Part shown: in pieces, positions 8,009-45,208 of the stretch | Numbering within the stretch: position 1 is the first letter of the stretch | How the letters are laid out: every line of letters starts with the position of its first letter | NCBI GenBank assembly: GCA_944383835.1 | Contig: CALWRE010000151.1 | Location: forward strand, 1 to 45,208 | Source: an uncultured Lachnospiraceae bacterium | Lineage (GTDB): Bacteria > Bacillota > Clostridia > Lachnospirales > Lachnospiraceae | Direction of reading: 5' to 3' | Length of the DNA: 45,208 bases | Made by a program: the position numbers and the translations under genes | Notes under the pieces: model-generated | The model's database searches: none | Told to the model about the DNA's origin: nothing | The model's input: the letters and a program-made list of their open reading frames with translations, nothing else

Positions 8009-8344
8009 ATGGATAAGAGATGCATATCGGACGAGTGCCTGAGCGCCACAGGGTTCAGCTATACGCTGTCGCTGATCAACGGGAAATATAAGATGACGAT
8101 CCTCTATACGTTGATGGAATTCGGCGTCGTGCGGTTTAACGAGATGAAGAAATATATCGGAGGAATTTCATATAAGACGTTAAGCTCCACATTAAAAGAG
8201 CTGGAAATGGATAAACTAATTCACAGAGAAGAATATCCGCAGATTCCGCCGAAAGTGGAGTATAGCCTGACAGAGAGGGGAAAATCATTGATTCCGATTC
8301 TGGACGGCATGTGCGAGTGGGGTACGAAAAACAGGATGCCCTGA
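8009..8344 (+). CDS. HxlR family winged-helix transcriptional regulator
   Basis: A 111-residue regulator. The region LSLINGKYKMTILYTLMEFG followed by VRFNEMKKYIGGISYKTLSSTLKELEMDKLI, and then IPPKVEYSLTERGKSLIPIL, is the full HxlR/MarR-like winged helix. Two N-terminal cysteines (C5, C10) are present; in some family members such cysteines sense redox or electrophile stress, but that role is not shown here. An AAGGAG site lies eight bases before the ATG. The gene has its own promoter and repeated candidate operators. It lies 70 bp before the promoter of the Mn2+ riboswitch/ATPase unit, so it is probably a separate transcript; its target is not evident. Confidence 0.92.
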   Translation: MDKRCISDECLSATGFSYTLSLINGKYKMTILYTLMEFGVVRFNEMKKYIGGISYKTLSSTLKELEMDKLIHREEYPQIPPKVEYSLTERGKSLIPILDGMCEWGTKNRMP

Positions 8345-8413
8345 GTGATTTGTCGGACAGAAATGAGTTTTAAGCACGAATTCACACAAATTTAGGACTT
8401 GGCCGCAAATCCC

Positions 8414-8442
8414 TTGACTTTCCCAGCAGGAAGCAGTACAAT
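8414..8442 (+). promoter_or_regulatory. Promoter of the riboswitch-ATPase unit
   Basis: TTGACT (8414-8419), 17 bp, TACAAT (8437-8442). The start at about 8449 lies just upstream of the riboswitch P1 strand. Confidence 0.75.
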
Positions 8443-8460
8443 AATACACCAAGAACCCCC

Positions 8461-8590
8461 GTGAGGGAGTAGCAAGCGTATAAAGTGCGTAACAAGTCAA
8501 CATCACTGGCCGGATAGCGGCCTGGCTTGTTTCAAATTGCGAGACTCATGTATAACCGATACAGCTATACACGTGTCTCATTTTTTTTTA
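8461..8590 (+). promoter_or_regulatory. Mn2+ riboswitch (yybP-ykoY family) with terminator expression platform
   Basis: The leader carries the conserved GGGAGTAGC near its 5' end (8465-8473), a GTCAACAT loop motif (8496-8503) and the 3' GCGAGAC motif (about 8539-8545), as in yybP-ykoY RNAs. P1 is GTGAG (8461-8465) with CTCAT (8545-8549). The second arm is AACAAG/CTTGTT capped by GGCCG/CGGCC. The 3' P1 strand is also part of the 5' arm of a long intrinsic terminator (GAGAC...GTCTC, then nine T, about 8541-8590). The two folds exclude each other: Mn2+-stabilised aptamer should prevent termination and switch on the ATPase gene. Confidence 0.9.
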
Positions 8591-8611
8591 CACATAGGAG
8601 GGAAACAACTT

Positions 8612-11251
8612 ATGCGATTTTATCTTGAAAACGCTGAAGAGGTCTTAAAGGATCTGGGCGCATCCCGCGAGGGATTAAGCGCGGCGGAGGCGCAAGCCCG
8701 CCTGGAGAAGAATGGCAAGAACCGCCTGGAGGCGGCCAAGGGTAAGTCCCTGCTTCGCAGATTCCTGGAACAGCTGGCCGATCCGATGATCATTATCCTA
8801 CTGGCGGCAGCGGCCATCAGCGGCGTGCTGGCCGTTGTGGAGAACGACAGCTTCGCCGATGTGATCATCATTCTGGCGGTGGTTATCGTAAACGCCGTCC
8901 TGGGCGTTTACCAGGAGAGCAAGGCGGAGAAAGCCATCGAGGCCCTGCAGGAGATGTCGGCCGCTACCTCCAAGGTAATGCGCGACGGCAAGGTGCAGGT
9001 GATCCACAGCGAGGATTTGGTGGTAGGAGACATTATCCTCCTGGAGGCGGGCGACGCCGTCCCTGCGGACGCGAGAATATTGGAGAGCGCCAGCCTGAAG
9101 GTGGAGGAGGCCGCCCTCACCGGCGAATCCGTCCCGGTCACCAAGTTTATCGACATCATTAATCTGAAGGAAGGGGAGAAGGATATTCCCCTGGGCGACC
9201 GCAAGAATATGATTTACATGGGCGGCACCATTGTATATGGCAGAGGAACCGCCGTGGTTACGGCCACCGGCATGGACACGGAGATGGGCAAGATTGCCGA
9301 CGCCCTGCAGCAGGCGGAGGACGGACAGACCCCTCTGCAGATCAAGCTGAATCAGCTGTCCAAGATTCTGACCTGGCTGGTTCTGGGTATCTGCGTGATT
9401 GTATTTGGCGTACAGCTTCTGCGGGCCGGCAGCCTGGATTTTGAGCTGATTCTGAATTCCTTTATGATTGCCGTATCCCTGGCCGTGGCGGCTATCCCCG
9501 AGGGCCTGGCCGCTGTGGTTACTGTGGTTTTGTCCATCGGCGTCACCAATATGTCCAAGAGAAACGCCATTATCCGCCGTCTGACCGCTGTGGAGACCCT
9601 GGGCTGCGCCCAGATTATCTGCTCGGATAAGACCGGCACCCTGACCCAGAACAAGATGACGGTGGTGGACTTCTTCGGCGAGGATGAGAAGAAGATTGCC
9701 GCGGCCATGGCCCTGTGCAGCGACGCGGAGATCGACGAGGCGGGAGAGGTCACCGGCGAGCCCACCGAGGCGGCCCTGGTAGCCTGGGCGCACAAGCTGG
9801 GCCTGGAAAAATATAAATTAAAGAAGGAATTTGCCCGCTGCGGCGAAGCGCCTTTTGATTCCGGCCGCAAGATGATGTCCACGGTCCATGTGGACGGACA
9901 GGCCTTTATCCAGTACACCAAGGGTGCGCCGGATGTGGTTATCGGCAAATGTACCCATTACCTGAAGGACGGCAAGCCCGTCCCGATGACGAAGGAATAT
10001 TCCGACCAGATCCTGGCGGCCAATAAGGCTATGGCAGATCGGGCGCTGCGCGTCCTGGCCTGCGCCGAGAGAATCTGGGCGCAGAAGCCGGAGCAGTTTG
10101 AGGCGGATTATCTGGAGCAGGATCTCTGCTTCGTGGGCCTGAGCGGCATGATCGACCCCGTCCGTCCGGAGGTGAAGGACGCTATCGTGGAATGTCGCGG
10201 AGCCGGCATTCGTCCGATTATGATCACCGGCGACCACATCGATACGGCTGTGGCCATCGCCAAGGAGCTGGGTATCCTGACCGACGACACCTGCGCGGTC
10301 ACCGGCTCTCAGTTAAACGATATGAGCGACGAGGAATTCGAGAAGAAATTCCAGAGCATCAGCGTCTATGCCCGCGTGCAGCCCGAGCATAAGACCCGCA
10401 TCGTCAACGCCTGGCGCAAGGCCGGCTATGTCACGGCCATGACCGGAGACGGCGTCAACGACGCTCCCTCGATCAAGTCGGCGGACATCGGCGTCGGCAT
10501 GGGCATCACCGGCACCGACGTGACCAAGAATGTGGCGGATATGGTGCTGGCGGACGACAACTTTGCCACCATTGTGGGCGCTGTGGAGGAAGGCCGCCGG
10601 ATTTACGACAATATCCGTAAGGCGATCCAGTTCCTGCTGGGCTCCAATATGAGCGAGGTCTTGAGCATCTTCTTTGCTACCTTGATGGGCTTTACCATCC
10701 TGCAGCCGGTGCACCTTTTGTGGATCAACCTGGTGACCGACTGTTTCCCGGCCCTTGCTCTGGGCATGGAGAAGGCGGAACCCAATATCATGCGCCGCAA
10801 GCCCCGTGACGCCAAGGCGGGCATCTTTGCCGACGGCATGGGCTTTGATATAGCTTACCAGGGAGCCCTGGTTACCGTTCTGGTCATGGCCTCCTACTTT
10901 ATCGGCCATTTCATCGAGACCGGCAACTGGGCGATTACCAACAGCGCCGACGGTACGACCATGGCTTTCGTGACCATGTCCATGGCCGAGATCTTCCATA
11001 GCTTCAACATGCGCTCCCAGAGACAGAGCATCTTCAAGCTGGGTTCTCAGAACAAGGTGCTGGTATTCGCAGCCATCGGTTCGCTGATTGCAACCACCCT
11101 GGTCTGCGAGGTGCCTTTCCTGGCGGCGGCCTTTGAGTTCACCACCGTTGAGCCTCTGGAGTACCTGATCGCCATCGCCCTGGGCGCCTGCGTGATCCCT
11201 GTGGTGGAACTGGTGAAATTCATTCAGAGAAAGATGGGTAAGACAAAATAA
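8612..11251 (+). CDS. P-type Ca2+/Mn2+-transporting ATPase (P2A type)
   Basis: An 879-residue cation pump that uses ATP to export divalent metal. All P-type landmarks are present: TGES actuator loop, PEGL in M4 (AAIPEGLAAVV), phosphorylation motif CSDKTGTLTQ with D339, KGAPD in the nucleotide domain, and TGDGVNDAPS. M5 (GSNMSEVLS) and M6 (NLVTDCFPALALG) keep the Asn/Glu and Asn/Asp ligands known from SERCA-type pumps. The sequence alone suggests a Ca2+ pump, but the Mn2+ riboswitch upstream argues that Mn2+ is a physiological substrate. I chose the ATG at 8612 because AGGAGGG lies nine bases upstream and the open frame before it overlaps the terminator. A GNAT gene follows with no gap. Confidence 0.95.
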   Translation: MRFYLENAEEVLKDLGASREGLSAAEAQARLEKNGKNRLEAAKGKSLLRRFLEQLADPMIIILLAAAAISGVLAVVENDSFADVIIILAVVIVNAVLGVYQESKAEKAIEALQEMSAATSKVMRDGKVQVIHSEDLVVGDIILLEAGDAVPADARILESASLKVEEAALTGESVPVTKFIDIINLKEGEKDIPLGDRKNMIYMGGTIVYGRGTAVVTATGMDTEMGKIADALQQAEDGQTPLQIKLNQLSKILTWLVLGICVIVFGVQLLRAGSLDFELILNSFMIAVSLAVAAIPEGLAAVVTVVLSIGVTNMSKRNAIIRRLTAVETLGCAQIICSDKTGTLTQNKMTVVDFFGEDEKKIAAAMALCSDAEIDEAGEVTGEPTEAALVAWAHKLGLEKYKLKKEFARCGEAPFDSGRKMMSTVHVDGQAFIQYTKGAPDVVIGKCTHYLKDGKPVPMTKEYSDQILAANKAMADRALRVLACAERIWAQKPEQFEADYLEQDLCFVGLSGMIDPVRPEVKDAIVECRGAGIRPIMITGDHIDTAVAIAKELGILTDDTCAVTGSQLNDMSDEEFEKKFQSISVYARVQPEHKTRIVNAWRKAGYVTAMTGDGVNDAPSIKSADIGVGMGITGTDVTKNVADMVLADDNFATIVGAVEEGRRIYDNIRKAIQFLLGSNMSEVLSIFFATLMGFTILQPVHLLWINLVTDCFPALALGMEKAEPNIMRRKPRDAKAGIFADGMGFDIAYQGALVTVLVMASYFIGHFIETGNWAITNSADGTTMAFVTMSMAEIFHSFNMRSQRQSIFKLGSQNKVLVFAAIGSLIATTLVCEVPFLAAAFEFTTVEPLEYLIAIALGACVIPVVELVKFIQRKMGKTK

Positions 11252-14667: not shown

Positions 14668-15519
14668 TTGAAGAAGGCGTTGAAAAAATACTGGCCGATC
14701 TTTCTGCTGCCTACATTTGCAGCCTTTATCATCGGCTTTATCATTCCGTTCATACAGGGCGTCTATCTGGCCTTCTGCCAGTTTACCACGGTGAGGGACG
14801 CCACCTTTATCGGCTTATCAAATTTCTCGCGGGCCATCAGCGACACCACGTTTCATCATGCTCTCTGGTACAACATTGCCTTCGTGATTGTCAGCACTCT
14901 GGCCATCAACCTGGGAGGGCTGGCCGTCGCGATGATTCTGACCCGTGCGATTCGGGGAAGGAATGCCTACCGCACAGTGTTCTTCATGCCCAACCTGATC
15001 GGCGGCATTGTGCTGGGCTATATCTGGCAGATCCTATTAAACTGCGTCCTGAGCCTTTTGGAAAAGCCTCTGCTTGCCCTGGACGCCACGGCTGGCTTCT
15101 GGGGACTGGTAATCCTGATGTGCTGGCAGCAGATCGGCTATATGATGGTCATTTATATCGCCGGCCTGCAGAGCATACCGGACGCCCTCGTGGAGGCGTC
15201 GGAGATCGATGGGGCTACGCCGCTTCAGACCTTTTTTAAGGTCAAGCTGCCGATGCTGATGCCTTCCATCACCATCTGCCTGTTTTTGACCATTACCAAC
15301 GGCTTTAAGCTCTTTGATCAGAATATGGCGCTGACCGCCGGACAGCCGGCCCATCAGAGCGAGCTGCTGGCGTACAACATCTATTACACCTTCTACGGGC
15401 GCTCAGGCCCTCAGTGGAGAGGAATCGGCCAGGCGAAGGCCGTGATCTTCTGCATTATCGTCGTGGCCATCTCCCTGATTCAGCTGGGAGTCACCCGCAA
15501 AAAGGAGGTGCAGCAATGA
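14668..15519 (+). CDS. Sugar ABC transporter permease (MalF type)
   Basis: A 283-residue inner-membrane permease with six predicted membrane segments, starting with a TTG at 14668 that has AAAGGAGG six bases upstream; the next candidates lack such a site. The ABC-binding EAA loop is visible as EASEIDGATPLQTFFKVKLPML (about 176-197), which docks onto the ATPase. The first helix reads FLLPTFAAFIIGFIIPFIQGVYLAF, typical of MalF-type subunits, but the large MalF P2 loop of enterobacteria is absent, as usual in Firmicutes. Its stop overlaps the ATG of the next permease (ATGA). It forms the channel heterodimer with that protein. Confidence 0.93.
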   Translation: MKKALKKYWPIFLLPTFAAFIIGFIIPFIQGVYLAFCQFTTVRDATFIGLSNFSRAISDTTFHHALWYNIAFVIVSTLAINLGGLAVAMILTRAIRGRNAYRTVFFMPNLIGGIVLGYIWQILLNCVLSLLEKPLLALDATAGFWGLVILMCWQQIGYMMVIYIAGLQSIPDALVEASEIDGATPLQTFFKVKLPMLMPSITICLFLTITNGFKLFDQNMALTAGQPAHQSELLAYNIYYTFYGRSGPQWRGIGQAKAVIFCIIVVAISLIQLGVTRKKEVQQ

Positions 15520-16358
15520 AGGAAAAAACACGCCGCATCAATCGGCTGTGGAGCGTCGTCATGTTTTTCGTGTCGGTGCTCTACATGTATCCGATTTTCA
15601 TGGTGCTGATGAATTCCCTGAAGGTGGAGAGCGCCATCAGTACCAGCACAGCCTTTGAGCTGCCGACGGCGGAAACCTTTGCCGGCTTTGCCAACTATGA
15701 GAACGCCATCAATGCCCAGGGTTTCCTAAGCAGCTTTTTCTATACGGCCTTTATTACCATCACGTCCGTGCTGGCAATCCTCTTTTTCTGCTCGATGTTT
15801 GCCTGGTACATTACGCGGGTGGAGACAAAGGTGACGAAGGCCCTTTACCTTCTGTGCGCCTTCTCCATGGTGGTGCCCTTCCAGATGGTGATGTTCACCC
15901 TCTCGTCCATGGCGGATACCCTGAATCTGGATACCCCCTGGGTGCTCTGGGTTATCTATCTGGGCTTTGGGGCAGGGCTGGCGGTATTTATGTTCTGCGG
16001 TTTTATGCGGAGCGTTCCCGTCGATATTGAGGAGGCCTCGATGATCGACGGCAGCAGCCCCCTGCAGACGTATTTTCATATTGTAATTCCGCTTCTGCGG
16101 CCAACCATGGTATCGGTGGCGATTTTGGAGGCCATGTGGATATGGAACGATTATCTGCTGCCCACGCTGATTCTCGATATCAATAAGTACAGGACGATTT
16201 CGATGTTAATCCAGTTCTTCCGGGGAAGCTACGGGCGCGTGGAGATGGGGCCGATGATGGCCTGTATCATGCTTGCCATTCTGCCGATTATCATTGTATA
16301 CTTGGTGGGGCAGAAACACATTATCAAGGGCGTGGTGGCAGGTGCGGTCAAAGGATGA
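15516..16358 (+). CDS. Sugar ABC transporter permease (MalG type)
   Basis: A 280-residue permease with six membrane segments and the EAA loop EEASMIDGSSPLQTYFHIVIPLL (about 172-194). The start overlaps the previous stop by four bases (ATGA), with AAAGGAGGTG six bases upstream, so the two permeases are made together. The N-terminal helix followed by YPIFMVLMNSLK and the C-terminal VGQKHIIKGVVAGAVKG are hallmarks of MalG-type subunits. It pairs with the MalF-type protein and should be energised by the ATPase at 19020. Confidence 0.93.
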   Translation: MKEKTRRINRLWSVVMFFVSVLYMYPIFMVLMNSLKVESAISTSTAFELPTAETFAGFANYENAINAQGFLSSFFYTAFITITSVLAILFFCSMFAWYITRVETKVTKALYLLCAFSMVVPFQMVMFTLSSMADTLNLDTPWVLWVIYLGFGAGLAVFMFCGFMRSVPVDIEEASMIDGSSPLQTYFHIVIPLLRPTMVSVAILEAMWIWNDYLLPTLILDINKYRTISMLIQFFRGSYGRVEMGPMMACIMLAILPIIIVYLVGQKHIIKGVVAGAVKG

Positions 16359-36280: not shown

Positions 36281-38128
36281 ATGAAGAGAAGAAGTTTGGC
36301 TTTGCTTTTGGCGGCGGCCCTGGTGCTCTCTCTGGCGGGCTGCTCTAGCGGCACCGACGGCACCGAGGGAACTGCGGCAGGCACGCAGGCTCCGACGGCC
36401 GGAGCCGAAACGGAAGAGGCGACGGAGGCGGCCGGCGGCTATACGGCGGGAACCTACACCGGAACTTCTACCGGCATGAACGGTGAGGTGACAGTGGAAG
36501 TGACCTTCGACGAGGACAGTATCACCGCCATCACGGTGACAAACCAGTCCGAGACCTACGGCATTGGCCAGGGCCTTGATACGACGCCGGTGGAGGCCCT
36601 GCCCCAGCAGATGTTAGAGGGACAGACCGTGAATGTGGACTCGGTTACCGGAGCGACCATCACCTCCGCGGCCATCAAGGCGGCGGTGAAGGACTGCGTG
36701 GAGCAGGCCGGAGGCGACGCGGCGGCTATGCCGGAGTATCATCCGGAGTCCGATGTGCCGGAGACGGTCGAGGCGGATGTGATCGTGGTGGGCGCCGGAG
36801 CTGCCGGTCTGTCCGCGGCCATTACGGCGGCCGAGGGCGGCGCGGATGTAGTGGTGATTGAGAAGCAGGGCGTGACCGGAGGATCGACGGCCCGCAGCGG
36901 CGGCAAGATTCTGGCCGCGGGTACCCAGTGGCAGGAGGCACAGGGCCAGGAGGACAATCCGGATCTGATGTATGAGTACCTGATGAGCTTCAGCAATGGG
37001 CTGATCGATGAGGATTTGCTGCGGATGTTCTGCGACGATTCCGCCGAGAACCTGAACTGGCTGGCGGATCTGGGCGTACAGGTACAGGATGTGGAGCCGA
37101 TCCATTCCTCCCTGACTCCCTGGAGGGTGCACAATACCCTGGGAGGCGGCGGACAGACCAGCGGCCATGGCGGCCAGATTACAGTTCCCCTGACCAAGAC
37201 AGCGGAAGGACTGGGCGTCAATATTATCTACAATACCAGCGGCACGGAACTGGTTACCGATGAAAATGGAGCGGTTACCGGCGTGGTGGCTGAGACGGCT
37301 GATGGAAAGACCGTAACCCTGCAGGGCAAGGCTGTCGTTCTGGCGACCGGCGGCTATGCATCGAATCCGGAGATGATGGCCCGTTATTCCGCCTTCCTGC
37401 CGGATAATTCCTACACCAGCGTTCCCAAGGGCAACGTGGGCGACGGCCTGGTCATGGCCGAGGCTGTGGGAGCCCAGGTGTTTGACAGCGAGGGCCTGCA
37501 GCTGGTGTATGTGAGCTATACCTGCGGCGTAGGCATCAATGAGGAATCCGGTCTGATCGTATCCGCCGCCGGCGAGCGCGTGGTGGACGAGTGGACCTAT
37601 CAGTCCCATGTGGCCGAGGCGCTGCGTCTGGCGGAGAGCCCCATTGCCTACTATATCGCCACCGCCAATGATCCGAATCCCACGGTGCAGTATGGCATGA
37701 CCCTGGATTCCACGGTGCAGGCTTCTTCCGTTGAGGAACTGGCCGGCCTTCTGAACATGGATCCCGAGGTGCTGACGGCTACGGTGGATCGCTACAATGA
37801 ACTGTGCGCCGCCGGCGAGGACGAGGACTTCGGCAAGCCTGCGGAGTACATGGTTCCGGTGGAGGGCGATACCTATTATGCCATTGCTATGAACCCCGGT
37901 TCCTCCGCTACCTTCGGCGGCCTGTGCATCAATGAGGATTCCCAGGTCCTGGATACGGAAGATCAGCCGATTGCCGGTCTGTACGCTGCCGGCGAGGTGG
38001 CCTTCACCGGGCTGTTCGGCACGGAATACCCCTGCTGCGGCATGGCCATCGGTTCCGCTGTCTACTTTGGCAGAATTGCCGGAACGAACGCGGCTGCCCT
38101 GGCTGTGGGAGAGACGGAGGCTGAGTAA
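36281..38128 (+). CDS. Surface FMN/FAD reductase lipoprotein (fumarate/urocanate reductase family)
   Basis: A 615-residue lipoprotein with lipobox Cys21 and an acidic tether to about residue 50. Residues about 52-145 form an FMN-binding domain ending in DSVTGATITS; T126 is the threonine that ApbE-type flavin transferases modify with FMN. The FAD domain follows, with Rossmann motif VVGAGAAGLSAAITAAEGGADVVVIEK (about 169-195) and the family pattern GGSTARSGGKILAAG, and it ends with GLYAAGEVAFTGLFGTEYPCCGMAIGSAVYFGR. This is the fumarate/urocanate reductase-like family, which in gut Firmicutes can act as an extracellular terminal reductase fed by a membrane electron path. The acceptor is not identifiable. 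Promoter-side repeats and a TetR gene suggest induction by that acceptor. Confidence 0.93.
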   Translation: MKRRSLALLLAAALVLSLAGCSSGTDGTEGTAAGTQAPTAGAETEEATEAAGGYTAGTYTGTSTGMNGEVTVEVTFDEDSITAITVTNQSETYGIGQGLDTTPVEALPQQMLEGQTVNVDSVTGATITSAAIKAAVKDCVEQAGGDAAAMPEYHPESDVPETVEADVIVVGAGAAGLSAAITAAEGGADVVVIEKQGVTGGSTARSGGKILAAGTQWQEAQGQEDNPDLMYEYLMSFSNGLIDEDLLRMFCDDSAENLNWLADLGVQVQDVEPIHSSLTPWRVHNTLGGGGQTSGHGGQITVPLTKTAEGLGVNIIYNTSGTELVTDENGAVTGVVAETADGKTVTLQGKAVVLATGGYASNPEMMARYSAFLPDNSYTSVPKGNVGDGLVMAEAVGAQVFDSEGLQLVYVSYTCGVGINEESGLIVSAAGERVVDEWTYQSHVAEALRLAESPIAYYIATANDPNPTVQYGMTLDSTVQASSVEELAGLLNMDPEVLTATVDRYNELCAAGEDEDFGKPAEYMVPVEGDTYYAIAMNPGSSATFGGLCINEDSQVLDTEDQPIAGLYAAGEVAFTGLFGTEYPCCGMAIGSAVYFGRIAGTNAAALAVGETEAE

Positions 38129-38181: not shown

Positions 38182-38997
38182 TTACTCTTGCTTAGTTTCC
38201 GGAGGCTGGCCGCTGTCTTTGCCGGCCTCCTTCTGCGCTACAAGATATCCGTGATAAATTTCAGTAAATAGAAAACTGAAAACAATGGGGGCAACAGAAG
38301 AATCCACGTACACCGGGTAATTCAGGGAGGCCCAGGTAGGAAGGACGATTACCTCGTCGGCCATTTTTCGCAGAGGATGCTGCTTGGTGTTGGCAATCAG
38401 GACGATATAAGGACGCCTGTGCGGCGGCATGTCCTTCACAAAAGCGAGAAATTTCTGGTGAGTCGCATTTTCCGCTGTAAAAAGGATGACTACATCATTG
38501 GGTTGAACCATGTGGAGGGTTTCGATTTCAAACCCGGGCTGGATGGTGAAGGAACGGGTTCCTCCCAGCATCAGATGCATCGACAGGATGTAGGCGGGAG
38601 GATAGCTGTTGCCATGACCGGTGACAAAAACAGTCGAGGCATTCCGCATCCGCAGGCTGAGCTTTTCCAGCTGCTTCTCCGAGAGCATTTTTTTTGTTTC
38701 CAAAACAAGCTGGGAAAAATAGTAAGCCTGATCGTGAGAGGCCGCCTGCGATTTATCAATAATAGGGCTTGAATGTGTGGCCGCATAGAAAGCCAGACGG
38801 AAATCGCTGTATCCCTCATATCCGATTCGCTTGCAGAAGCGGCTGATGGCGCTTTGCGAAATATTGAATCGGTTCGCCAGGTCGCTGGCAGTGGACGAAA
38901 AGAATAAAAAAGTATGTTTTTGAATCAGCTCGTAAACCTCATGCTCTTTTGGGGTCATTTCTTCTTCGCATTGCTTCATTTTTTCCCAAATGTCCAT
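38182..38997 (-). CDS. RpiR/MurR family transcriptional regulator with SIS domain
   Basis: A 271-residue regulator. The N-terminal RpiR helix-turn-helix is TASDLANRFNISQSAISRFCKRIGYEGYSDFRLAF. The C-terminal SIS domain (about 105-250) includes NASTVFVTGHGNSY and FTIQPGFEIETLHMVQPNDVVILF, the fold that binds phosphosugars, so the inducer is probably a phosphorylated sugar. I use the ATG at 38997 with GGAGG five bases before it; a TTG 12 bases further upstream overlaps that site and is unlikely. The gene is divergent from the PTS operon and the intergenic region carries several TGAA/TTCA palindromes. Confidence 0.94.
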   Translation of the reverse strand: MDIWEKMKQCEEEMTPKEHEVYELIQKHTFLFFSSTASDLANRFNISQSAISRFCKRIGYEGYSDFRLAFYAATHSSPIIDKSQAASHDQAYYFSQLVLETKKMLSEKQLEKLSLRMRNASTVFVTGHGNSYPPAYILSMHLMLGGTRSFTIQPGFEIETLHMVQPNDVVILFTAENATHQKFLAFVKDMPPHRRPYIVLIANTKQHPLRKMADEVIVLPTWASLNYPVYVDSSVAPIVFSFLFTEIYHGYLVAQKEAGKDSGQPPETKQE

Positions 38998-39040
38998 GAT
39001 TGCCTCCAAATGTATTTCATTTCTGTAGCCGTTTCTTCAG

Positions 39041-39092: not shown

Positions 39093-39215
39093 ACTAAATT
39101 TTAGTTTTCGATTTTGTTGAAAAATTCATTCAGAAAAATATTGAAAAAGCCATTCAATAGTGCTACCCTATTTGTAGGAATTGGCTGAACCATTCAGATA
39201 AAAAGTGAATGGTAT
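39093..39215. promoter_or_regulatory. Palindrome array in the RpiR/PTS intergenic region
   Basis: ACTAAA-T-TTTAGT (39093-39105); TTGAAAAATTCATTCAG (39117-39133); TTGAAAAAGCCATTCAA (39141-39157), which matches the previous one at 14 of 17 positions 24 bp away; CTGAACCATTCAG (39185-39197); and CCATTCA inverted to TGAATGG nearby (39190-39212). The recurring half-site is TGAA/TTCA. RpiR binding is inference. Confidence 0.6.
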
Positions 39216-39235: not shown

Positions 39236-40084
39236 ATGACAAACAAAGAGGGAAATGGGGGATATGGTATGGTTAGTTTTAGCAGTGAAAAGGTTACTCC
39301 GCATATTACAAGAATACGGGACGGCAGCGATGTATGCGAATACTTGATTGTAGGAAATGACCGTGCTGCGCTGATCGATACGGGGTACGGCATCGGGGAT
39401 CTGAAGGGCTATGTGGAAAGCCTGACGGATAAACCCTACGAGGTATTTATCACCCATGGACATGTGGACCATGCGGCCGGCGCCGCCCAGTTTGAAAAGG
39501 CATATATGAACCTGGCCGACCAGGCTCTGTTTAATGTTCACTGCGAGGTGGAGTTCCGCAAGGAGATGCTGGCCTCCCATGGAGACCTGCAGCTGGAGGA
39601 GGCGGACTTCCTGCCTAAGAGAAAGGCTCCTTTTACCAATATTGAGGATGGTATGGAAGTGGATCTGGGCGGGGTTACCGTTACCTTCCTCCACATTCCG
39701 GGCCATACGCAGGGGATAATGGTTCCGCTGATAAAGGAAGACAGGGCGGTTCTCTTCGGAGATGCCTGCGGCGTCGGCGTACTGCTGCTGCTTCCGGAGT
39801 CCTCTACCGTGGAAGAATATTGTAAGAGCCTGAAGAAACTCCAGACTTATGAACCTTACTACGACACGGTGCTGAGACAGCACGGTACCTGCACTTCGAC
39901 GCCTCATGTGCTGGAGGATAATATTGAAAACTGTGAGAAGATCCTGGCGGGAACGGACGACCATGTGGAAGACAAAATGATGGGCGTGACCTGCTACTGG
40001 GCCCGTGAGATCGATCCGGCCACAGGAATGCGGAAGGATGGAAGAGAGGGGAATATCCGTTATTCCCTGGATCATGTCCGCTGA
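39236..40084 (+). CDS. Metallo-beta-lactamase-fold hydrolase, first gene of the PTS operon
   Basis: A 282-residue metal-dependent hydrolase without a signal peptide. The metal ligands HGHVDH (H74, H76, D78, H79), H157 in HIPGHTQG and D176 in FGDACGVG are all present. This is the general glyoxalase II/lactonase-like shape. MBL-fold lactonases occur in sugar-acid PTS operons (UlaG acts on ascorbate-6-phosphate), which makes a lactone or ester of a phosphorylated sugar a possible substrate, but that is only an analogy. ATG at 39269 (MVSFSSEK) is an equally plausible start; neither has a strong ribosome binding site. It is followed by the PTS IIB gene. Confidence 0.85.
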   Translation: MTNKEGNGGYGMVSFSSEKVTPHITRIRDGSDVCEYLIVGNDRAALIDTGYGIGDLKGYVESLTDKPYEVFITHGHVDHAAGAAQFEKAYMNLADQALFNVHCEVEFRKEMLASHGDLQLEEADFLPKRKAPFTNIEDGMEVDLGGVTVTFLHIPGHTQGIMVPLIKEDRAVLFGDACGVGVLLLLPESSTVEEYCKSLKKLQTYEPYYDTVLRQHGTCTSTPHVLEDNIENCEKILAGTDDHVEDKMMGVTCYWAREIDPATGMRKDGREGNIRYSLDHVR

Positions 40085-40146
40085 AGGGATACAGAAATGA
40101 ATTGTCGGACAGACAATGAAAAAATAAAAAGAAGAGAGGAATAAGT

Positions 40147-40632
40147 ATGGCAAAAGGTATTGTTCATTTTCGTGTTGACGATCGTATGCTCCATGGGATT
40201 GTGTCTACGGACTGGGTTCCGCAGTTTAACGCCACCAGGGCTATGGTAGTCGATGCGACTGCAGCGGGGAGCGATCTGACGAGATCCACTTTGAAGATGG
40301 CCTGCCCGGCGGGCGTGGCGCTTTCGGTACTGGCTCCGGAAAAGGCTGCGGAGAATATTCTGGCAGGCAAGTATGCCGCACAGAAAGTTTTCTGCGTATG
40401 CCGCTATGTGAAAGGCGCTTATGAACTGTTCAAAGCAGGAGTGGAAATTCCGCAGCTGAACCTGGGCAACGTTACCCAGAATAAGGGTGAGACGATTGTC
40501 CTGGACAAGACCGTGCGGGTATCGCCGGAGGAGAGAGACATGCTGCGCGAGATGAGAGACGCAGGGGTTAAAATCACGGCCCGTTTCCGCGTGTCGGATA
40601 CGGAAACAGATGTGAGCAAGCTGTTGGATTAA
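40147..40632 (+). CDS. PTS mannose-family EIIB component
   Basis: A 161-residue cytoplasmic phosphocarrier that takes phosphate from IIA and passes it to the sugar at IIC/IID. The phosphorylated His is H16 in FRVDDRMLHGIV, the family motif (RxDxRxxHGQV type). The remaining domain (VVDATAAGSDLTRSTLKMACPAGVALSVL, LNLGNVTQNKGE) fits the mannose-fructose-sorbose group. It is the first PTS gene; IIC, IID and IIA follow in the same operon, so a complete complex is encoded. Confidence 0.95.
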   Translation: MAKGIVHFRVDDRMLHGIVSTDWVPQFNATRAMVVDATAAGSDLTRSTLKMACPAGVALSVLAPEKAAENILAGKYAAQKVFCVCRYVKGAYELFKAGVEIPQLNLGNVTQNKGETIVLDKTVRVSPEERDMLREMRDAGVKITARFRVSDTETDVSKLLD

Positions 40633-40675
40633 AATCCGAAGAGGGTTTTAATAATAGAAAGGAGGGGCAAACGAA

Positions 40676-41473
40676 ATGTTTAGTCCGTTACAAGTTATTC
40701 TTCTTGCAGTTTTGGTTGCCTTTTGGAAATGGCAGCAAATGAATCTGCAGTGCCTCAACTACGCAGCCGTAGTGACGGTGGGCGCCCTTACCGGTTTGAT
40801 CATGGGGGATTTTGGAACCGGTATGCTCGTCGGCGGTACCATGTGCTTGATGAGTCTGGGACTCTTTGGTGCAGGCGGTTCCAGCGTTCCTGATTATCAG
40901 ACAGGATGCGTCGCTGGCGCGGCTTTTGCTATCGCGATGGGGCAGAGCGGTCAGGATGCTGTGACCACGGCCATGACCATTGGCATCCCGGTAGCTGCGC
41001 TGGGTACGGAGCTGGATGTTCTGGCAAAGACCTCCGGATCCTTCTTCATCCATAAGATGATGAAGTGCTCCGATGCGAAGGACTGGAAGGGAATGGGCCG
41101 CTGGCTGTGGCTTTCCCAGATTCCGGCTCTGGGTGTGTGGGTACTTCCTATGGTATTGCTTACGACTGTAGGCGCTAACTATGTAGAGATTGTTATCAAT
41201 GCGATTCCGCAGTGGCTGAACAACGGCCTGACGGTTGCCAGCGGAATGCTCCCTGCACTGGGCTTTGCTATTCTGCTTCGCCAGCTGCCGTTGAAAAAGT
41301 ATGGTTACTTCTTACTGTTTGGTTTCGTCCTGGCTGCTTACCTGGGCCTGAGCGTACTGGCTATCGCTATGCTGGGCGTTGTGGTTTGTGTGTTCATCTT
41401 CCAGATGAGAGAAGAAAATGATAAGAAAGCGGCCAATGCAGTATATGCAGGAGGTGACAACGAAGATGAGTAA
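40676..41473 (+). CDS. PTS mannose-family EIIC component
   Basis: A 265-residue membrane protein with about seven hydrophobic segments that forms the sugar channel together with IID. The start MFSPLQVILLAVLVAFWKWQQM, the glycine-rich TGLIMGDFGTGMLVGGTMCLMSLGLFG and GCVAGAAFAIAMGQ fit the IIC of the mannose family. AGGAGGGG lies upstream of the ATG. Its end overlaps the IID start by eight bases. Substrate selectivity of the family is set here and in IID and cannot be read from sequence. Confidence 0.95.
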   Translation: MFSPLQVILLAVLVAFWKWQQMNLQCLNYAAVVTVGALTGLIMGDFGTGMLVGGTMCLMSLGLFGAGGSSVPDYQTGCVAGAAFAIAMGQSGQDAVTTAMTIGIPVAALGTELDVLAKTSGSFFIHKMMKCSDAKDWKGMGRWLWLSQIPALGVWVLPMVLLTTVGANYVEIVINAIPQWLNNGLTVASGMLPALGFAILLRQLPLKKYGYFLLFGFVLAAYLGLSVLAIAMLGVVVCVFIFQMREENDKKAANAVYAGGDNEDE

Positions 41474-42269
41474 TGAAACTGTTAAGCTGACAAAAAAAGA
41501 TTTGACGCAGGTGCTTCGCCGTTATGTATTGTCCCGTCAGACCTGCTTTAACTATGAAACGATGCAGTCCGGTCCCTGGGTGTGGTCCATGCATCCTGCC
41601 ATGAAGAAAATCTACGGCGATGATGATGTTCTGGCAGAAAAATATAAGAGCTACTTTAAGTTTTTTAACTGCCATCCCTGGTTTGGCCAGCTGATCCTGA
41701 TGTCCAACCTGGCTGTTGAGTCCACCAAGGATGAGAATGCTACCGAGACGGCTCTGGATGTCCGTACTTCCCTGATGGGACCTCTGGCAGGCCTGGGCGA
41801 CGCGATTGTTTGGGTTCTGCTGCCCACCGTTATGGGCGCTATCGCCGGATATCAGGCGCAGAACGGCAGCATCTTCGGAACGATCCTGGCTATCGCCGTA
41901 AACATTGCCCTCTGGCTGGTGTTCTGGTTCCTGTCCTATCCTGTATATGAAAAGGGAGTGTCCTTCATTACCTCGAAGAGCGCATCCTTACATAATCTGA
42001 CGGAGGCATGCTCCATCCTGGGTATCATCGTAATGGGCGCTATGGTTGCATCCACGGTCAATGTGAATATTACATATTCGTGGACGGTAGGAGACCTGAC
42101 GCAGAATCTGGGCGACCTGCTCAATTCGATCATTCCTTACTTCGCCAATGTGGTTACGACAGCCATCATTTACTGGGCGTTGGGACGCAAGAAAATGACG
42201 TCCGGCAAGCTGATCTGGATTGTTATCATTGTTGCCATCGTTCTGGGCGCATTGGGAATCTGCGGTTAA
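41466..42269 (+). CDS. PTS mannose-family EIID component
   Basis: A 267-residue membrane protein, partner of IIC. The start MSNETVKLTKKDLTQVLRRYVLSRQTCFNYETMQSGPWVWSMHPAMKKIYGDDDVLAEKYKSYFKFFN is the standard IID opening, and SLMGPLAGLGDAIVWVLLPTVMGAIAG is the conserved glycine motif. I placed the start at 41466, inside the IIC end, with AGGAGGTGA eight bases upstream. After its stop a perfect 13-bp hairpin (42282-42313) separates it from the ceramidase-like gene. Confidence 0.95.
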   Translation: MSNETVKLTKKDLTQVLRRYVLSRQTCFNYETMQSGPWVWSMHPAMKKIYGDDDVLAEKYKSYFKFFNCHPWFGQLILMSNLAVESTKDENATETALDVRTSLMGPLAGLGDAIVWVLLPTVMGAIAGYQAQNGSIFGTILAIAVNIALWLVFWFLSYPVYEKGVSFITSKSASLHNLTEACSILGIIVMGAMVASTVNVNITYSWTVGDLTQNLGDLLNSIIPYFANVVTTAIIYWALGRKKMTSGKLIWIVIIVAIVLGALGICG

Positions 42270-42281
42270 GACGTATTGCGT

Positions 42282-42313
42282 GAGGCTCTCTGCAGAAGGT
42301 TGCAGAGAGCCTC
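42282..42313 (+). other. 13-bp perfect hairpin between IID and ceramidase-like genes
   Basis: GAGGCTCTCTGCA (42282-42294), six-base loop, TGCAGAGAGCCTC (42301-42313), then TCTGTGTATTTAT. It may be a partial terminator or a processing/stability element that lowers expression of the downstream genes. Confidence 0.65.
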
Positions 42314-42357
42314 TCTGTGTATTTATAAATGGGATATAAAATGGGAGGAAGCTTAGA

Positions 42358-43611
42358 ATGAAAGTATCGACTGGCAGAAAAGAAATCACACCTACAGGAG
42401 AGTTTTTCCCGTGCCGGCTGTCGGGGCATGCGATTCGGACGGAGCCGGCGGAGGGAATCATGAATCCGCTGTGGACAACCGCTCTACGGTGGGAAATAGA
42501 TGGGGATAACTTGATTTGGGTGACGGTAGAACTAATTGGCCTGGAGAGAAGCTATACGGAGGGGATTGCACAGGAAATATCCTTAAAGTATAATATTCCA
42601 AAGGAAAATATTACAATCTGCTTTACCCATACCCATTCCGCTCCTGAATGCAGGGAAAAATCCTGGCTGGGACCTGGCGCGGTTCCGGGCTACATGGATT
42701 TTGTGCGGGAACAGGTTCTGGCTGTTGTGGAAGAATGCTTTTTGGCGGAAATGCAGCCGGTGGAGTTGTATGCGGGGACGACCGTGATAGAGGGCTGCTA
42801 CGGAAACAGGAACGGGAAGGACAAACCCTGCGATAAAACGGTTACAACGCTGGAATTCCGCAATGGAGATAAGGTGGTGGCCGGTATTGGACATTTCACC
42901 TGCCATTCTACCGTCCTGGGACCGCAGAATCTTCTGGTTAGCAGCGATTTGGCAGGCTATGTGGCCAGAGCGCTGGAAGAAAAATGGGGCGTATATCCGC
43001 TTATTTTTGTCGGCGCGGCCGGGGATATGAGCAACCGCCTGTATCGCCAGGGCAACGATCTGGCAGAGCTGAATCGGGTGGGCAAGGAGATGATGGATCA
43101 GGTTTTTGCCGGAATCCACCCGGAAAAATTGTCCGTTTCCAAACCGGTTATCCGCACATTCCATTTCAGCGAGACCTATTACCCGAAGAAAGAGGAAAAA
43201 CAGGCTCAATATGAAGAAATTCAAAGACGAGTTGCCAATGCTCATACCTTCGATGAAAAGAAGGTGTATTCTTCGGCCCTGGCTGCAGCAAAGGAAGGAC
43301 TGAAATGCGAACCCTTCTGCCTGGATCTGGTCTGCCGCTATATGGATTTGGGAGATCTGCGGATCTTTACGGTTCCGGCGGAGCTTTTCTCCCGCTTCGG
43401 CTTGAAGATCAAGGAACAGATGGGCGGAAAATGCCGAATCTGCTGGTGCTACAGCAATTATTCGGCAGGATATTTAGGCAATAAGGAAGATTACGGCGCA
43501 TCCTTTGAGACGGCCGCCTCCAGCATCCCGGTGGGGACGACGGAGCGGATCGTGGAAGAAATGTGCGCGTTTATTGCGCAATGCAATAAGGAAAGAGAGG
43601 AGACGAAATGA
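42358..43611 (+). CDS. Ceramidase-like (neutral/alkaline non-lysosomal) metal hydrolase, cytosolic
   Basis: A 417-residue protein with the start of the neutral ceramidase catalytic domain: GRKEITPTGEFF at the N-terminus, LIWVTVELIGLE, and ICFTHTHSAPE with H91/H93, the region of one zinc ligand in known ceramidases. A second His motif GHFTCHSTVLGP and VGAAGDMSNR follow, as in the family. There is no signal peptide and the usual C-terminal Ig-like domain is absent, so it is a short cytosolic form. It sits between the PTS IID and IIA genes and overlaps IIA by four bases (ATGA). An amide- or ester-type bond of the imported phosphosugar is a plausible target, not a lipid; this is inference. Confidence 0.85.
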   Translation: MKVSTGRKEITPTGEFFPCRLSGHAIRTEPAEGIMNPLWTTALRWEIDGDNLIWVTVELIGLERSYTEGIAQEISLKYNIPKENITICFTHTHSAPECREKSWLGPGAVPGYMDFVREQVLAVVEECFLAEMQPVELYAGTTVIEGCYGNRNGKDKPCDKTVTTLEFRNGDKVVAGIGHFTCHSTVLGPQNLLVSSDLAGYVARALEEKWGVYPLIFVGAAGDMSNRLYRQGNDLAELNRVGKEMMDQVFAGIHPEKLSVSKPVIRTFHFSETYYPKKEEKQAQYEEIQRRVANAHTFDEKKVYSSALAAAKEGLKCEPFCLDLVCRYMDLGDLRIFTVPAELFSRFGLKIKEQMGGKCRICWCYSNYSAGYLGNKEDYGASFETAASSIPVGTTERIVEEMCAFIAQCNKEREETK

Positions 43612-44009
43612 AAATATTACTGGTAAGCCATGGGGCGTTTGCAGAGGGAATTGCCGCTACGGTCAGAGACTTTTTTGGGGCTGGAAATATATATACGGCC
43701 TGTGTTACACTGGAAAACGGGACAGCCGACCTGACCAAAAAGGTAGAGGAGTATTTGTCCCAGTGGGGAGATGAGCAGGTGGTGATCTGCTCGGACGTAA
43801 AGGGCGGCAGCGCCAACCAGAGCGTTGTTCCCTATATGAACCGCCCGAATACCTTCTTGATTTCCGGGATGAACCTGGCCCTTCTCCTGCAGCTTCACAT
43901 GGAGACGGAGGTTACGGCGGAAAGCCTGCGGGATATGATTGCCGGAGCGAGAGAAGATATGCAGCTGATTAACGACATGAGTTTTGAGTTTGACGAGGAC
44001 GATGAATAA
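43608..44009 (+). CDS. PTS mannose-family EIIA component
   Basis: A 133-residue cytoplasmic phosphocarrier that receives phosphate from HPr. The active-site His is H8 in LLVSHGAFAEGI, the family motif. ICSDVKGGSANQSV and FLISGMNLALLLQL match the rest of the fold. A very acidic C-terminus (EFDEDDE) is present. Its start overlaps the ceramidase-like gene stop (ATGA) and its end overlaps the HAD gene start by eight bases, so the enzyme genes on both sides are tightly coupled to the PTS. Confidence 0.94.
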   Translation: MKILLVSHGAFAEGIAATVRDFFGAGNIYTACVTLENGTADLTKKVEEYLSQWGDEQVVICSDVKGGSANQSVVPYMNRPNTFLISGMNLALLLQLHMETEVTAESLRDMIAGAREDMQLINDMSFEFDEDDE

Positions 44010-44859
44010 GAGGGAAATCGCAGAGAAGGCGAAGGGAATCAAGCTGATCGCCCTGGATATGGACGGCACCAGCCTGAATAACAGGAGCGAAATAACCCCG
44101 CGGACGAGAAAAACCATCCAGGCATTGGTCGACCGGGGGTATATTGTGACGCCGGCCACCGGCAGGGGATTTTACGGACTGCGGGAAAATATGCTGCAGG
44201 TGTCGAATATTCGCTATGTTATCTCCGCCAATGGGGCAGTGGTGACAGACGCGGAAAAAGGCCGTATCGGCGAAAAGCTGATTCCGCAGGCGGAGGCTGC
44301 CCGGTTCGTACAGGAACTGCTGCATGAGGGCTGCTATATTTATCTGCATCGGTACGATGAAAAGAGCACCCATATGTTTGGCTGTCCGAGCAGAGAGGCA
44401 TACATAAAGGGAGCAAGTTTCCGCAAAAAAGATTGGCCCGAGGACAGAGTGCTTTATGGATCGGATTTGGCAGACTTTATCCGCAAAGGCGGCCGTGACG
44501 TGATTAAGCTGGGCCTTGTATTTGAAAAGAGTAAAAGCTTCGCCGATTACGAACCGATCATTCGGAAGGAATTTCCGGATTTGAATTGTTTTCGGGTCTC
44601 GCCAAACAGTTTGGAGATGACCAATGCCCAGGCCAGCAAAGGAAATGCCCTGCGTTTCCTCTGCGAATACCTGGGCATTGACCCGGAACAGGTCTGCGCC
44701 ATCGGCGATCAGGGAAACGATATTTCCATGGTCAGCTACGCCGGGCTGGGCGTGGCCATGGGGAATGCAGTGGATTCCCTGAAAGCAGAGGCGGATTATA
44801 TAGCGGGATCAAACGATGAAGAGGGGGCAGCCGCTTTTTTTGAGGAGTTTTTTCTATAA
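44002..44859 (+). CDS. Cof-type HAD superfamily phosphatase
   Basis: A 285-residue HAD phosphatase. Motif I is LIALDMDGTSLNN (D19 nucleophile, D21 acid/base), motif II is in VTPATGRG, and motif IV is CAIGDQGNDISMVSYAGLGVAMGNA. The C2 cap (about 95-190) marks the Cof/YbjI group, which hydrolyses phosphosugars. I use the ATG at 44002, which overlaps the IIA stop by eight bases; a longer frame from 43984 has no ribosome binding site. It is the last gene of the operon and could dephosphorylate a PTS product that the cell does not further metabolise. No terminator is visible before the rRNA promoter. Confidence 0.93.
   Translation: MNKREIAEKAKGIKLIALDMDGTSLNNRSEITPRTRKTIQALVDRGYIVTPATGRGFYGLRENMLQVSNIRYVISANGAVVTDAEKGRIGEKLIPQAEAARFVQELLHEGCYIYLHRYDEKSTHMFGCPSREAYIKGASFRKKDWPEDRVLYGSDLADFIRKGGRDVIKLGLVFEKSKSFADYEPIIRKEFPDLNCFRVSPNSLEMTNAQASKGNALRFLCEYLGIDPEQVCAIGDQGNDISMVSYAGLGVAMGNAVDSLKAEADYIAGSNDEEGAAAFFEEFFL

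Positions 44860-45135: not shown

Positions 45136-45208
<73 letters not shown>

Follow-up and report, generated by a model that had tools for sequence, protein, structure and literature searches.

A short ceramidase-fold hydrolase encoded with mannose-family phosphotransferase systems in gut Firmicutes

The window is a stretch of 45,208 nucleotides from an uncultured Lachnospiraceae bacterium (contig CALWRE010000151.1 of assembly GCA_944383835.1). Seven genes lie at 39236-44859 on its plus strand in the order MBL-IIB-IIC-IID-CER-IIA-HAD, and a gene for an RpiR-family regulator is divergent from them. IIA to IID are the subunits of a mannose-family phosphotransferase system (PTS), MBL is a metallo-β-lactamase-fold hydrolase, and HAD is a Cof-type phosphatase. 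CER is the short ceramidase-fold hydrolase of this operon and, by extension, its relatives elsewhere; other loci and genomes carry L and G numbers. The pairing of CER with a mannose-family PTS is real and recurs across many gut Firmicutes. Mannose-family PTS catabolism built round such a hydrolase is real and recurs, and it is apparently undescribed. We give an even chance to the reading that the PTS imports an acyl sugar, most likely an N-acyl amino sugar, which CER deacylates in the cytosol and from which HAD removes the phosphate.

CER and its linkage to mannose-family PTS genes

In 13 genomes picked for carrying CER, 50 CER genes were compared with the positions of IID genes: 26 have one on the same strand at a distance of 6 kb or less, against 1.6 expected; two of the 52 CER, in G397 and G401, were dropped as these genomes had no IID list. 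Without the 13 CER matches that brought the genomes in, a hand count leaves 14/37 near IID. A further 40 loci come from the family of Holdemania filiformis (also that of G399), and 27 of them sit in a mannose-PTS operon; they are the top-scoring loci among the matches listed, genomes already covered being skipped, and the search profile, made mostly of PTS-linked CER seeds, favours that clade. Pooling of the loci and dereplication at 70% CER identity give 65 clusters, 32 of which are PTS-linked. Chance co-location of CER and mannose PTS is ruled out by these three counts. The search for conserved neighbourhoods proposed in a preliminary description of this DNA thus finds CER repeatedly beside mannose-family PTS genes. 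In a tree of 52 CER, from which one CER fragment was left out, a single clade with loose support (84/91) takes in 23 of the 25 PTS-linked rows. The PTS-link label changes 4 times on this tree versus 17.5 times when shuffled, and none of 500 shuffles is as low.

CER is found in 12 of 397 genomes of the window's family at E < 1e-10 and in 5 of 299 genomes of its phylum sample at E 1e-60, the window's own genome being counted in both, and in 56 of 195 genomes of the Holdemania filiformis family at E 1e-60. Holdemania filiformis and one Erysipelotrichaceae metagenome-assembled genome have nine matches each, the latter including short fragments. The window's genome holds three CER, namely the window copy, C230 and C135. 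C230 lies in the gene order MBL-CER-IIC-IID-IIB-YdjC-u95-IIA. C135 (L005, 2396-9949) comes with its own RpiR gene and is divergent from YdjC, a gene of glycoside hydrolase family 1 (GH1) and PTS genes that, judged by eye, are of the cellobiose type.

CER belongs to the neutral ceramidase superfamily PF04734, as both Pfam score and fold indicate. The Ceramidase_alk match spans residues 6-209, and the AlphaFold2 model, based on an alignment of 22 relatives, has a pLDDT of 92.3 and a pTM of 0.91. Its matches in the PDB at E < 0.001 number four, all neutral ceramidases, with TM scores of 0.71-0.77 by query length. A profile of the same 22 relatives, searched against solved structures, finds only 2zws/2zxc and 4wgk (E up to 0.01). 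In each of two 25-member CER groups, 96-100% of the members retain H91, H93, R151, H183, G222, E342, and Y372, and D197 is conserved in 100% of one group and 84% of the other. Modelling of the active site, which the preliminary description had suggested, hence yields a ceramidase fold with conserved His, His, Glu, and Tyr positions, which we take to be the ligand positions of neutral ceramidases. Residues particular to the clade richest in PTS-linked members are R27, Y148, K156, N226, Y229, G348, and W363. No signal peptide is seen by eye. The ceramidase hexapeptide GDVSPN, described in passages of PMC5874051 as important for ceramidase activity, reads GDMSNR in the window CER. Against the neutral-ceramidase equivalog NF041649 the protein scores 22.7 bits where the cut-off is 1200, and on these two findings it was rejected as a member of the true neutral ceramidases.

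Partner genes in CER-PTS operons

We then compared the gene content of the 32 PTS-CER clusters with that of 20 CER-less IID operons. The clusters contain a LevR/BglG-type regulator in 12 cases, HAD in 8, MBL and PfkB in 7 each, and DUF34/NIF3 in 6; rarer partners in the same run are YdjC (4), SIS (3), GlmU-like (2), and RpiR (1). The CER-less operons contain LevR/BglG (2), PfkB (2), and RpiR (1), and none has HAD, MBL, NIF3, YdjC, SIS, or a GlmU-like gene. Fisher's exact test gives p values of 0.017 for HAD, 0.035 for MBL, 0.052 for LevR/BglG, 0.071 for NIF3, 0.15 for YdjC, and 0.28 for SIS. The controls were chosen by the analyst from three genomes (12 from G399, 5 from G000, and 3 from G407), and some are cut by contig ends. 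The family hidden Markov models had 1 to 6 seeds each, partly Pfam-checked, genes were simple open-reading-frame picks, and the pooled count used a relaxed overlap filter that retained an L004 CER lost in the first set. For HAD and SIS, the 0/20 control figures belong to this operon run only. In the first locus set, counted within 5 kb on either strand, MBL occurs at 4/22 loci versus 0/20, NIF3 at 6/22 versus 0/20, and SIS at 1/22 versus 2/20.

The closest operons (L034, L033, and L197) read IIB-IIC-IID-CER-IIA-HAD-DUF34 and are without MBL; L033 begins at CER, at a contig end. The CER of L034 and L033 are 63-64% identical to that of the window, and that of L197 falls in the same 70% cluster. 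Relatives of the window MBL occur in 36 of 250 genomes of its family, its own counted, and CER or mannose-PTS genes were found at none of the 16 such loci inspected, within the stretch listed. With 4/22 loci, 7/32 clusters, and 0/16 loci of its relatives, MBL is not supported as an essential step. The three hydrolases that had been claimed as one set with the PTS therefore hold together in part: HAD and MBL are associated with CER-PTS operons and missing from the control operons, but MBL is absent from the nearest operons, which have DUF34/NIF3 instead. The window's own trio of hydrolases represents one operon version among several. Likewise, the reported lack of an isomerase and a kinase is correct for the window operon, but as sister operons hold PfkB or SIS, this absence is a trait of the window version only.

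Three PfkB proteins tested score over the hexose-kinase subfamily cut-off and under that for 1-phosphofructokinase. The SIS protein tested from a sister operon is PRK02947, and the product of the next gene looks like bifunctional enzymes of the GlmU kind, with a score below cut-off. A gene of the inositol-monophosphatase family follows CER in L232 and, by eye, in L234. DUF34/NIF3, a family of debated function, is here found in a sugar-PTS context, lying in or beside the CER-PTS operons of L033, L034, L035, L041, L042, L096, L197, L199, L200, L216, L220, and L221. The main text of a DUF34 survey (PMC8469502) mentions none of PTS, sugar, ceramidase, and phosphatase. Other observations concern single loci. 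In L139 (7166-9427, genome G179), an MBL relative lies in a frame of 753-755 residues that also matches GH1, a possible MBL-GH1 fusion, and relatives of the window MBL are near GH1 genes in L145 and L146. L035 encodes at 15311-16357 a 348-residue protein that matches no Pfam family; its gene is flanked by those of IID and a BglG-type regulator, and homologues occur in L036 and L084. In the sister CER operon of L004, a single frame (8318-9022) contains a YajC domain followed by EIIA-man, possibly a YajC-IIA fusion.

Proposed pathway and alternatives

In the proposed pathway, the mannose-family PTS would import and phosphorylate a sugar bearing an acyl group, with an N-acyl amino sugar as the likeliest kind. 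In the cytosol, CER would act as a metal-dependent hydrolase that strips off the acyl group, filling the place of NagA/AgaA, and HAD would free the phosphate from the CER product, a place taken in sister operons by PfkB or SIS enzymes. MBL and DUF34/NIF3 would be interchangeable or optional auxiliary metal proteins. That the substrate is an amide- or ester-capped sugar is what we infer. The preliminary description had read the operon as uptake of a substituted sugar followed by hydrolysis; this is plausible in view of the CER-PTS tie and the enrichment of HAD and MBL, but the MBL step it included is optional.

As to the sugar itself, the best substrate-named NCBIfam models are those of the Aga (galactosamine/GalNAc) PTS for IIC, IID, and IIA, and the PTS subfamily thus leans weakly toward an Aga-type substrate. 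YdjC genes are present in sister operons and, by Pfam, in L004 and L005, and the one tested scores below the chitin-disaccharide-deacetylase cut-off. NagA is found over cut-off in 15 of 15 genomes. NagA and CER never occur together within 6 kb of an IID gene (0/19 versus 18/93, p 0.039), in a test that covers NagA matches from about 160 bits upward and omits four of the 15 genomes (no IID list), G404, and G406. This separation would fit CER in NagA's place, which it does not prove. Neither the open-access literature nor the PTS subfamily models yield a substrate for the operon.

Several findings weigh against the pathway as proposed. The Aga models are below cut-off in all three cases (135.4 of 300 bits for IIC, 156.7 of 400 for IID, and 50.7 of 130 for IIA), and the best substrate-named model for IIB is a mannose subunit, also below cut-off. 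The NagA/CER exclusion is weak, with 0/18 versus 15/94 at 3 kb (p 0.124) and a p value of 0.11 when the sister genome G400 is left out. HAD within 5 kb on either strand occurs at 9/22 loci versus 3/20 controls, which is weaker than the operon count, and PfkB shows no enrichment (7/32 versus 2/20, p 0.45) and was rejected as a CER-specific partner. Of 22 CER relatives, 6 have Gly where the ceramidase motif has its serine. R227 and R230 were considered as a PTS-specific phosphate site and ruled out: both are also common outside the clade richest in PTS-linked CER, and since CER that are not PTS-linked share them, they give no argument for a phosphosugar. Lastly, 33 of the 65 dereplicated CER clusters are without a PTS link.

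The main alternative, a serious one though clearly less probable than the acyl-sugar pathway, is that the bond opened by CER, together with MBL or DUF34, is not an amide but an ester or lactone in a sugar or sugar acid that the PTS has imported. UlaG, an MBL-fold ascorbate-6-phosphate lactonase encoded in a PTS operon, is a precedent. The best solved match of the window MBL is a hydroxyacylglutathione hydrolase, which is a thioesterase, and the protein weakly matches lactonase and SoxH-like models; the GH1 genes beside its relatives in L145 and L146 point the same way. However, the solved enzymes found with the fold of CER are amidases only, MBL is missing from 25 of 32 CER-PTS operons, and the YdjC and GlmU-like partners point toward amino sugars. 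Alternatively, CER may act on another cytosolic amide, or in regulation or salvage, and its partnership with the PTS would be one of co-regulation. The CER clusters without PTS link and the several CER genes that stand alone would be expected in that case, but the tight mannose-PTS operons recur and PTS-linked CER are concentrated in one clade, albeit a loosely supported one, so we consider it unlikely. Still far less probable is a lipid amidase or true ceramidase, with the PTS taking up the sugar head group: the Ceramidase_alk match and the ceramidase fold would suit such an enzyme, but the equivalog score, the altered hexapeptide, the lack of a visible signal peptide, and an operon without a glycosidase or lipid gene all speak against it.

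Returning to the acyl-sugar pathway, its generalization, that gut Firmicutes possess a whole family of short cytosolic ceramidase-fold sugar-phosphate deacylases acting after mannose-family PTS uptake, and with it PTS pathways of a new class that is modular in build, is tentative and in our judgement falls a little short of an even chance. Such a class would combine CER with HAD, PfkB, or SIS, and with MBL, DUF34, or YdjC. It would give the ceramidase fold a new role, place DUF34/NIF3 proteins in sugar metabolism, and predict capped-sugar nutrients that are so far undescribed. Through the linkage, a protein family known from the breakdown of sphingolipids becomes connected with the import of sugars by gut Firmicutes, and 'ceramidase' annotations in such genomes are at risk of being misread as sphingolipid metabolism. 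With a compact module that recurs and is carried by named isolates, the substrate question is directly testable.

The window module and known systems

All seven operon genes and the RpiR gene pass their Pfam cut-offs, and the PTS set is complete, with each of IIA, IIB, IIC, and IID represented. The gene positions, the complete mannose-type PTS, and the short ceramidase-family enzyme between IID and IIA are thus as the preliminary description had them. Its tight spacing with overlaps of 4-8 bases is found at three of six junctions (IIC/IID, 8 bases; CER/IIA, 4; IIA/HAD, 8), but the other three are gaps of 62, 43, and 88 bases, the longest being that between IID and CER. MBL may instead start at an in-frame ATG at 39269, where the ribosome-binding site looks better by eye. 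HAD also exceeds the cut-off of TIGR00099, the Cof-type HAD-IIB model (155.9 versus 137 bits). HPr has four matches elsewhere in the window's genome.

Table 1. Features of the module and its flanking regulator in the window
Feature	Position	Strand	Evidence and remarks
RpiR-family regulator (HTH_6 + SIS)	38182-39009	-	Pfam HTH_6 57.5 bits, SIS 30.4 bits; start TTG 39009 or ATG 38997
Putative operator region	39117-39211		Between RpiR and operon; 16-bp boxes TTGAA-N5-CATTCA
MBL-fold hydrolase	39236-40084	+	Pfam Lactamase_B 66.8 bits; HxHxDH-type motif THGHVDH (by eye)
Mannose-family PTS IIB	40147-40632	+	Pfam PTSIIB_sorb 127.7 bits
Mannose-family PTS IIC	40676-41473	+	Pfam EII-Sor 204.3 bits
Mannose-family PTS IID	41466-42269	+	Pfam EIID-AGA 244.2 bits
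Intercistronic hairpin	42282-42313	+	IID-CER gap; 14 pairs, weak T tail; z -4.4
CER, 417 aa	42358-43611	+	Pfam Ceramidase_alk 51.2 bits (cut-off 32.1)
Mannose-family PTS IIA	43608-44009	+	Pfam EIIA-man 48.3 bits
Cof-type HAD-IIB phosphatase	44002-44859	+	Pfam Hydrolase_3 187.4 bits; closest solved relatives include YidA

The gap between the regulator and the operon contains two boxes (39117-39132 and 39141-39156), a variant (39181-39196), and an inverted TGAATG (39206-39211). CATTCA/TGAATG occurs 4 times in this gap in the window, 4 times in that of L034, and 3 times in that of L096, compared with 0.12-0.17 expected from mononucleotide shuffles. RpiR probably senses a phosphosugar at these boxes. 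Hairpins that differ in sequence recur in the IID-CER gap, with z values of -3.4 in L034 and -2.6 in L197; that of the window, a strong one, may serve as an attenuator, terminator, or processing site.

In the CER tree, the window protein clusters with those of Erysipelotrichaceae and of this family's relatives (100/100). Upstream of the module, at 36281-38128, lies a gene for a secreted-looking flavoprotein (FMN_bind + FAD_binding_2) that has 8 matches in the same genome at 1e-60 and whose orthologues in congeners adjoin the rRNA operon. A 16S rRNA gene starts at 45136-45208, the contig end, and the rRNA operon therefore follows the PTS operon. The congeners G893 and G065 have the flavoprotein gene, at 97% and 91% identity, then about 220 bases, and then the stretch that follows the operon in the window, before the 16S rRNA; in G371 and G894, the pre-rRNA stretch is near the flavoprotein gene, with no operon between and other sequence there. 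Since its closest relatives are from Erysipelotrichaceae, other loci have the operator boxes in common with it, and the site is empty in two congeners, the module was probably acquired horizontally and gained as a unit, loss in the congeners being less likely. A chance neighbourhood or a mis-assembled metagenome contig, which the missing module at the same site in congeners and an assembly of 244 contigs with 3.37% estimated contamination might suggest, is the least probable explanation of all, because the recR gene of this contig shares 93% identity with those of G065 and G893, the flavoprotein gene likewise matches congeners, and gene order and operator boxes recur in other species.

In the open-access literature, subscription journals being outside this scope, we found no description of a ceramidase and mannose PTS operon or of a ceramidase in connection with Holdemania filiformis, and by title and beginning of abstract none of its PF04734 papers is about CER with a PTS; the earlier statement that no pathway with this gene set is described agrees with this. 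Among known systems, the GalNAc/galactosamine (Aga) and GlcNAc pathways share the mannose-family PTS and supply the best models for IIC, IID, and IIA. The window operon differs from them in having no NagA, deaminase, or aldolase and in scoring below the Aga cut-offs. NagA and AgaA are the deacetylases of ordinary amino-sugar PTS pathways, and their fold class differs from that of CER. In the chitobiose operon, ChbG, of the YdjC family, deacetylates a PTS-phosphorylated sugar in the cytosol; YdjC is missing from the window operon, and CER is of a different family. The gfr PTS of Salmonella imports an N-substituted sugar that is cleaved after phosphorylation by SIS-fold deglycases, whereas the window operon has CER. 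This glucoselysine/fructoselysine system, gfrABCDEF, is likewise a mannose-family PTS (cf. PMC12675984). The neutral ceramidases, human (4wgk) and Pseudomonas aeruginosa (2zws/2zxc), share with CER the fold and the conserved His, His, Glu, and Tyr positions. In contrast to these enzymes of 646-688 residues, CER has about 417 residues, carries GDMSNR in place of GDVSPN, falls far below the equivalog cut-off, and is encoded in a PTS operon.

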